In this document: piece by piece, positions 34,219 through 35,771 of the stretch
How positions within the stretch are numbered: the first letter of the stretch is position 1
Layout of the letters: every line of letters starts with the position of its first letter
NCBI RefSeq assembly: GCF_001428305.1
Contig: NZ_LMRZ01000006.1
Coordinates: 186,001-250,000 of the forward strand
DNA from: Janibacter sp. Soil728
Lineage (GTDB): Bacteria; Actinomycetota; Actinomycetes; Actinomycetales; Dermatophilaceae
DNA length: 64,000 nucleotides
Direction: 5' to 3'
Position numbers and translations under genes: made by a program
Notes under the pieces: model-generated
Databases searched by the model: none
Seen by the model: only the letters and a program-made list of their open reading frames with translations
What the model was told of the DNA's origin: nothing

Positions 34219-34725
34219 ATGTCCGAGCGCGAAGACCTTGACACCGACCTGACGAGCTACAGCCTCGACGACGAGGACCAGCTGCAGCCCGGCGACAGCC
34301 TCATGGGGGACGGGACCGGGCAGGAGGACGCGCTCGACGCCGGGTACTCACCGCCGGACTCCGCCCGGGGGTCCTACGCCCATGGCGTGACAGCAGCAGA
34401 GCAGCAGGTCAACGAGTCGATCGACGAGCGCCTGAAGCAGGAGCAGCCCGACCCCGCGACCGACGAGGAGGACCCGGGGCGTCGCGGCTCCGACCGGGTC
34501 GGCGGCGACGACCCCGACTCCATCGCGGCCGAGGACGACTGGATCGGCGACAGCGAGGTCGGCGACGCCCGCGCAGGGCGGCTCGTCAGCCCCGACGAGG
34601 GCAGCCACGAGGACCGCGATGACCAGGCCTGGGGCCGCGACGTGGGTGTCGACGGCGGCGCCGCCTCCGCCGAGGAGGCGGCCGTCCACATCATCGGCAA
34701 CGACGACAACGGGGACTCCGCCTGA
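34219..34725 (+). CDS. DUF5709-like acidic protein
   Basis: A 168-residue, strongly acidic, probably disordered protein starting MSEREDLDTDLTSYSLDDED. It has the repeated-looking blocks EDQLQPGDSL, DALDAGYSPPDSARG, RLKQEQPD and GRLVSPDEGSHED that I associate with DUF5709, a family widespread in Actinobacteria. No enzyme motif or membrane segment is seen and the function is unknown. It starts 2 bp after the aminotransferase stop, and its own stop overlaps the likely adenosine deaminase start. Confidence 0.8.
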   Translation: MSEREDLDTDLTSYSLDDEDQLQPGDSLMGDGTGQEDALDAGYSPPDSARGSYAHGVTAAEQQVNESIDERLKQEQPDPATDEEDPGRRGSDRVGGDDPDSIAAEDDWIGDSEVGDARAGRLVSPDEGSHEDRDDQAWGRDVGVDGGAASAEEAAVHIIGNDDNGDSA

Positions 34726-35771
34726 GCGCCGCGGCCCGGGACCTGAGGGCACTGCCCAAGGCGCACCTGCACCTGCACTTCACGGGGTCCATGCGGGTCG
34801 AGACCGTGCGCGACATGGCACTCGGCCACGGGATGCGGCTGCCGGACTCCCTTCGCGGCGCCTATCCCCCACGGCTGTCCGCCGCTGACGAACGCGGATG
34901 GTTCCGCTTCCAGCGTCTCTACGACGCCGCACGACACTGCGTGCGCGGTGAGGCCGACATGCGGCGCATCGTGCGTGAGGCGGCGCTGGACGACGGCGCC
35001 GAGGGGTCGCGCTGGCTGGAGATCCAGGTCGACCCGACGTCGTACGCCCCCTTCGTCGGGGGGATCACGCCCGCGATGGAGATCGTGCTCGACGAGGCGC
35101 GCTCGGTGAACGCGACCGCGGACGAGACCGGCTCGGCCCGTGTTGGCGTCCTCATGGCCGCCAGCCGCATCCGCCACCCGCTCGAGGCCCGCACGCTCGC
35201 CCGGTTGGCGGCCCAGCACGCCGGGCGCGGCCCGGAGGGCGTCCTGGGCTTCGGTTTGTCCAATGACGAGCGGCGCGGCTTCACACCGGACTTCGCGCAG
35301 GCCTTCCGCATCGCGGAGCGAGCCGGGCTGGCACTCGTCCCCCACTCCGGGGAGCTCCTCGGTCCCGACTCCGTCGCCGAGACGCTCGAGGTGCTCCGAC
35401 CCGACCGCCTCGGCCACGGCGTACGCAGTGTGGAGGACCCGCGCGTGCTGGACGCGATCGTCGAGGCCGGGGTCGCTCTCGAGGTCTGCCCCGGGTCCAA
35501 TGTCTCCCTCGGCGTCTACCGCGAGGCACCCGACGTGCCGCTGCGCACCCTCGTCGAGGCAGGCGCGACCATCGCGCTCGGTGCCGACGACCCCCTCCTC
35601 TTCGACTCGCGGCTGCTCGACCAGTACGAGACGGCACGCACGGTCCACGGTCTCGACGACGCCGAGATCGCGAGGCTGGCACGTGATTCCTTCCGGGCGA
35701 GCCGGGCACCGCAGGTCGTCGTGGACGCGGCGATGGCGGACATCGACGCGTGGCTGGCCGCCCCCGCCTGA
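34722..35771 (+). CDS. add: Adenosine deaminase family protein, apparent CTG start
   Basis: A zinc hydrolase that deaminates adenosine to inosine (adenosine or a close analogue). The metal motif KAHLHLHFTGS lies upstream of the first ATG (34791), and the frame has no ATG, GTG or TTG that includes it. The best start is CTG at 34722, overlapping the previous stop as CTGA, with GGGG 7 nt upstream. This gives 349 residues with His17 and His19 in HxH. Other catalytic blocks are VPHSGE, RLGHGVR, CPGSNV and GADDPLLF. The next CTG codons (34743, 34752) are alternatives. Probably cotranscribed with the DUF5709 and aminotransferase genes. Confidence 0.85.
   Translation: MSAAARDLRALPKAHLHLHFTGSMRVETVRDMALGHGMRLPDSLRGAYPPRLSAADERGWFRFQRLYDAARHCVRGEADMRRIVREAALDDGAEGSRWLEIQVDPTSYAPFVGGITPAMEIVLDEARSVNATADETGSARVGVLMAASRIRHPLEARTLARLAAQHAGRGPEGVLGFGLSNDERRGFTPDFAQAFRIAERAGLALVPHSGELLGPDSVAETLEVLRPDRLGHGVRSVEDPRVLDAIVEAGVALEVCPGSNVSLGVYREAPDVPLRTLVEAGATIALGADDPLLFDSRLLDQYETARTVHGLDDAEIARLARDSFRASRAPQVVVDAAMADIDAWLAAPA

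Follow-up and report, generated by a model that had tools for sequence, protein, structure and literature searches.

Initiation at CUG is rare in bacteria. According to the accessible text of one study it accounts for 0.024% of bacterial starts and has 0.86% of the efficiency of AUG (PMC11497404). Switches to CUG were counted as 2, 1 and 1 from 61,358 AUG, 5,080 GUG and 2,468 UUG ancestral starts in the accessible text of another, i.e. 4 in total among 68,906 (PMC5622118). In selections performed in M. smegmatis CTG was not enriched as an initiator even with a Shine-Dalgarno (SD) sequence (PMC4633059), nor was it enriched among the Ribo-RET initiation footprints of M. tuberculosis (PMC9094748), as stated in the accessible parts of these two papers. 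Coupling of termination and reinitiation is known from gene pairs that overlap as ATGA or TGATG (accessible text of PMC6728339 and PMC10666635). CTG is not mentioned in the main text of the former and neither CTG nor CUG in that of the latter; likewise, CUG does not occur in the main text of PMC12548453, which reviewed translational coupling in 2025.

The locus described here lies in a window of 64,000 nucleotides, the whole stretch of Janibacter sp. Soil728 DNA that was analysed, which spans G000:C6:186001-250000 (Table 1). A DUF5709 protein gene is followed by an adenosine deaminase (ADA) gene, for which an earlier note on this DNA had proposed a CTG start overlapping the upstream TGA as CTGA, behind a well-placed GGGG. 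The coordinates of the two codons and of the GGGG agree with this proposal, and the junction reads GGGGACTCCGC-CTGA-GCGCC. The CTG is in frame with the first ATG, 69 nt further on. The note had also claimed that no ATG, GTG or TTG precedes the metal-binding motif in this frame, and indeed none was present among the 47 open codons that lie ahead of HLHLH, back to the in-frame stop. The CTGA alone is not unusual: of the 350 TGA-ending genes called in 440 kb of this genome, 219 have a C directly ahead of the stop, more than any other base. What sets the ADA junction apart is the lack of any ordinary start nearby.

Table 1. Features of the DUF5709-ADA junction, in window positions, and of the second candidate gene, in contig and (in brackets) locus positions.
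Feature	Position	Strand	Remarks
DUF5709 protein gene, 168 aa	34219..34725	+	PF18970, 78.6 bits; ATG 34219 is the predicted start
GGGG, SD-like, within the DUF5709 tail	34711..34714	+	7 nt before the CTG
CTG, proposed ADA start codon	34722..34724	+	CTG in 16/16 Janibacter species
TGA stop of the DUF5709 gene	34723..34725	+	shares two bases with the CTG
Adenosine deaminase (ADA), 349 aa from the CTG	34722..35771	+	PF00962, NF006849, TIGR01430
HLHLH with HxH motif, upstream of the first ATG	34764..34778	+	aligned to LHLH of 3rys_A
First in-frame ATG, internal Met 24	34791..34793	+	start given by the ORF lister
mazG-like gene, apparent CTG start on a CTGA overlap	G000:C4:145446-146216 (L274:5446-6216)		MazG PF03819, 68.7 bits

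By profile the product is an adenosine deaminase, and the deamination of adenosine is its predicted activity. Translated from the CTG, the protein scored 274.3 bits with PF00962, covering profile positions 1-321 of 330, 558.6 with NF006849 (cutoff 494) and 257.0 with TIGR01430 (cutoff 216.55). When translated from ATG 34791, the PF00962 match began at profile position 14 and the first 13 positions were missing. The NF006849 score of this shorter protein was 510.9, still above the cutoff, so that a truncation would not fail this family test. Residues 2-7 from the CTG are SAAARD, and most of the solved ADA chains among the matches listed align from query residue 8-12. In the alignment with one solved chain, 3rys_A, the LHLH of the query stood on the LHLH of that chain. 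The HxH residues, which we take to be metal ligands of the ADA family, are part of the protein only if translation begins before 34791. An ORF lister using ATG, GTG and TTG began the gene exactly there and returned a protein without HLHLH, so that both the truncation by automated callers and the loss of the motif, as anticipated in the earlier note, were reproduced with this lister.

We compared 16 Janibacter species including this strain, 7 of which are listed as single-contig assemblies. ADA was found in all 16 genomes. In every species CTGA stood in the ADA frame at the junction and formed the end of the DUF5709 gene, and no ATG, GTG or TTG was present within 100 nt before HLHLH. In 11 species, this strain among these, no canonical start existed anywhere back to the in-frame stop, and in the remaining five (L008, L010, L011, L012 and L015) the nearest one was an in-frame GTG that falls within the DUF5709 gene, 129-147 nt upstream of the motif. 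The distance from CTG to HLHLH was 42 nt in 13 species and 45, 51 and 57 nt in L011, L015 and L016, respectively; since all these length changes are multiples of three, the reading frame is kept. An alignment of starts in relatives had been proposed as a check, and its outcome extends the reading of CTG as the ADA start from one strain to the genus. A sequencing or assembly error that conceals an ordinary start, which the earlier note had named as an objection, would be the first thought if only one genome were available. As the assemblies of 16 species agree on CTGA at this position, we regard the probability of such an error as negligible. An argument from the conserved C to selection was weakened on its own account: since C so often precedes TGA in this genome and the species compared are relatives, a conserved C tells little by itself.

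The codons between the CTG and the first ATG were analysed for coding constraint, with positions counted from the first base of HLHLH. HLHLHFTGS changed only synonymously (pN 0.0, pS 0.29) in the 13 species that share the same leader length. The 13 codons after the CTG gave a pN of 0.122 and a pS of 0.371 in the same species, i.e. a ratio of 0.33, as compared to 1.3 and 2.7 in the other frames. For positions -27 to +26 in all 16 species the values were 0.022 and 0.35 (ratio 0.064; other frames 10.0 and 7.1). The first six codons after the CTG were mildly constrained (0.222 / 0.377, pN/pS 0.59). The Arg at -27 was kept in all species and the Asp at -24 in 15 of them. We concluded that the codons before ATG 34791 evolve as protein and that ribosomes therefore read them in the ADA frame, from about -27 onward at the least.

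These data bear on whether ADA starts elsewhere. ATG 34791 is the first canonical start, and two further CTG codons are widely kept in the leader, CTG 34743 (-21) in 15 of the 16 species (CTC in L006) and CTG 34752 (-12) in 13 (CTC in L005 and L032, CTT in L010); the upstream in-frame GTG is available in five species. A start at ATG 34791, the second objection named in the earlier note, is contradicted by the synonymous-only change of HLHLHFTGS ahead of it and by the HxH motif, which would be lost. Each of the two later CTGs is absent from one or more species, whereas the overlap CTG is invariant in all 16, and the conserved Arg and Asp lie ahead of the CTG at -21. We rejected both the ATG and the later CTGs on these grounds. 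The upstream GTG is missing in 11 species, where no canonical codon exists. In L004, in which the ADA frame reads TGA CGC CTG, the start cannot be further upstream, because the in-frame TGA stands just before the CTG. Altogether we consider a start at any of these other codons improbable, and initiation at the overlap CTG remains the preferred reading.

In the Janibacter species the DUF5709 protein has a conserved GAASAEEAAVH region, followed by a tail that is hypervariable in length and sequence. This tail closes with Ala, Asp, Arg, Ile, Ser or Leu, in each case encoded by a codon that ends in C. A programmed -1 frameshift at this codon, with the CTG read as Leu, would produce a DUF5709-ADA fusion instead of a separately initiated ADA. 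The geometry fits, as ribosomes stepping back by one base on the final sense codon would continue with CTG AGC, and in L004 such a shift would be possible only at that point, since the -1 frame is closed just before the CTG. No conserved slippery sequence was seen by eye, the last residue and the preceding bases vary, and GTG occupies the same junction in other genera, where no shift is needed. We rejected the fusion for the lack of a conserved slippery site and judge it to be rather unlikely compared with a CTG start.

The genome of this strain encodes a second ADA-family protein, 32% identical, and at least one further ADA-family match was present in every one of the 16 Janibacter genomes examined. 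The loss of this ADA might perhaps be tolerated, and the gene could have lost its start and be a silent pseudogene, or be expressed only by very leaky initiation. The ADA frame of G004 would be in line with this, as it is split into two overlapping matches. ADA was nearly full-length and without internal stops in 15 of the 16 species, with the motif intact and, in the 14 other than this strain, 79-94% identity to it; together with the low pN/pS at the 5' end of ADA this makes a lost start very improbable. The split matches in G004 (L032, L033; G004:C59) are perhaps due to an assembly error or a young frameshift.

Relative to the CTG, a G was present at -11 in all 16 Janibacter species and at -8 in 14. 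SD duplex energies were calculated with what we assume to be the 16S tail sequence. Before the 16 Janibacter CTGs the mean was -7.17, and for 392 starts called in 440 kb of this genome by the custom gene caller that also served for the genome scan it was -5.71 (p 0.10). At 125 TGA stops that have a called start no more than 20 nt away the mean energy was -6.01. At 225 TGA stops without a start nearby it was -3.28, and the comparison with the CTGs gave p 2e-7, a value that is too small because the 16 CTGs are related. The SD before the CTG is thus no weaker than before canonical starts. It was weak in two of the 16 species, L006 (-4.5) and L007 (-3.5).

The one initiator tRNA gene that was matched by pattern in this genome is not of the CUG-tolerant type, in which the three G-C pairs of the anticodon stem are altered. 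Its anticodon stem-loop reads CCGGG-CTCATAA-CCCGG, with an ordinary G-C run, and a relaxed initiator tRNA was rejected as the cause on the basis of this ordinary stem.

In a wider comparison 186 genomes of the family were searched, and ADA was detected at E values up to 1e-90 in 175, 16 of which were the Janibacter genomes. From the 159 non-Janibacter genomes, loci were taken from 135 (24 were left out) and 134 could be parsed, L186 having no motif. The DUF5709-ADA junction was GTGA in 24 and CTGA in 12 of the 134 loci. Six of the latter had no canonical start within about 100 nt (G027, G120, G121, G128, G130 and G189) and the remaining six had a canonical start downstream. CTGA behind genes other than DUF5709 was found in three loci, one of them without a canonical start (G205), so that a canonical start was located downstream in 8 of the 15 CTGA junctions outside Janibacter. 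Neither a canonical start within 100 nt ahead of the motif nor an NTGA overlap with a called gene was present in G129 (L216/L250) and G177 (L234/L251). An absent start is therefore not always explained by CTGA, because L216 and L234 have neither. The rest of the 134 loci had canonical ADA starts. When the 16 Janibacter loci were included, 25 of 150 loci were without a canonical start and 23 of these 25 had a CTGA gene junction, compared to 8 of the 125 loci with a canonical start. As GTGA and CTGA both occur across the family, GTG and CTG alternate at one and the same DUF5709-ADA junction. The ADA of G108 (genus code g18) starts at GTGA, not CTGA.

The ADA tree was calculated by a quick method from 59 chosen proteins, with the fragmentary G004 omitted, and 18 of its 55 inner branches were open. 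On this tree the CTG state cannot be explained with fewer than 7 changes, and 5 of them are forced by well-supported branches; the minimum of 7 counts L250 (G129) as CTG, where an in-frame CTGA stands at -48 and no called gene ends. The CTG start thus appears to have arisen several times. Janibacter and the neighbour genus g64 grouped together (support 94, not starred). In G122, which belongs to g64 (L265/L137), no DUF5709 motif was found in the 600 nt upstream of ADA, and ADA has a GTG 5 nt after the TAG of the preceding reading frame.

A scan of 840 kb of this genome covered 440 kb with 392 genes and 40 CTGA overlaps and another 400 kb with 342 genes and 26 CTGA overlaps. The custom gene caller requires some canonical start, and CTG genes without any would be missed by it. 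Two CTGA overlaps stood out in the 840 kb by the coding signal before the first canonical start, namely ADA with +4.2 over 23 codons and a mazG-like gene with +15.6 over 77 codons. For the mazG protein no NCBIfam model matched at its cutoff. The gene ahead of it, whose stop it overlaps, encodes a SurA_N-like lipoprotein (PF13624 match below the gathering score). In the 16 Janibacter species the apparent mazG overlap was CTGA in 14 and GTGA in two (G001 and G003), as judged from a comparison of the stretch between 90 nt ahead of an anchor motif and 45 nt behind it, with the upstream genes inferred; the anchor was missing at L302, L308, L311, L313, L315 and L316, all outside Janibacter. Seven of the 14 species with CTGA had no canonical start close by, including G011, in which a GTG precedes the CTG by 45 nt, and seven had a GTG two codons on. 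We conclude that mazG is probably a second CTG-started gene in this genome, and a weaker case than ADA. Among overlaps with a long leader, the one that ranked next in score was a CTGA at about 30895 on the minus strand of the window (G000:C6:216895), where the 25 codons ahead of the first canonical start gave a weak coding signal of +2.4.

With high probability these observations are best explained by a functional-looking ADA that is made by CUG initiation coupled to the termination of the upstream gene. The comparisons across the genus point to the CUG as the ADA start, and the stop-start coupling and the fMet at this codon would be expected by analogy with known biology. Methionine is incorporated at CUG start codons. 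Having ended DUF5709 at the UGA, next to the SD-like purine run in the DUF5709 tail, ribosomes would move back by one base to the overlapping CUG and begin ADA there, by reinitiation or by a fresh initiation, in which ordinary fMet-tRNA is the most likely initiator. A ribosome held at the stop may offset the weak codon and lead to a low ADA level tied to that of DUF5709. Either the choice of start codon is relaxed at such junctions, or very little ADA is made. A low output would be permitted, as every Janibacter genome has a further ADA-family match.

We tentatively suggest, at somewhat less than even chance, that stop-start overlaps in these high-GC actinobacteria may accept any NTG, the ribosome being held by termination and the SD. 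CUG and GUG would then be nearly interchangeable there, and the overlap base would drift with the last upstream codon. If this were true, there would be a hidden class of CUG-started genes, which would be cut short by callers that accept ATG, GTG and TTG only; among the 66 CTGA overlaps in 840 kb, two would belong to it, namely ADA and, probably, mazG. For ADA this blind spot would mean that part of the active site is lost and the family cutoff is still passed. The CTGA and GTGA versions of one junction form a natural series for testing whether reinitiation relaxes the choice of start codon. Throughout a genus, a metabolic enzyme appears to have no other start available than a codon reported as about 1% as efficient as AUG (PMC11497404, accessible text).

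CUG starts and stop-start coupling are each already known, and their conserved combination at this junction is apparently undescribed; a search that left the subscription literature mostly outside yielded no account of a CUG start that is shared by a whole genus and alternates with GUG where it overlaps a TGA. Compared with the adenosine deaminases of NF006849 (PRK09358.1-5), the protein is alike in its full-length match above the cutoff, and the start codon, GTG or ATG in relatives and CTG here, is the sole difference examined. An M1-like altered initiator tRNA, as in the accessible text of PMC11497404, has a change in the stem, whereas the single tRNA gene found here has an ordinary stem. 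The junction resembles the coupled ATGA and TGATG pairs, as far as these are described in the accessible text of PMC6728339 and PMC10666635, in its 4-nt overlap, the SD within the upstream gene and two adjacent genes on the same strand, and it differs in having CTG in place of ATG, GTG or TTG. If the CTG is the start, ADA overlaps the upstream stop on the same strand in all 16 Janibacter species. With the rare bacterial CUG starts reported in the accessible parts of PMC11497404 and PMC5622118 the locus would share the initiation at CUG behind an SD. It differs from them in that the CUG is kept throughout the genus and in a neighbouring lineage, and in that it is located at a stop overlap, where it alternates with GUG.
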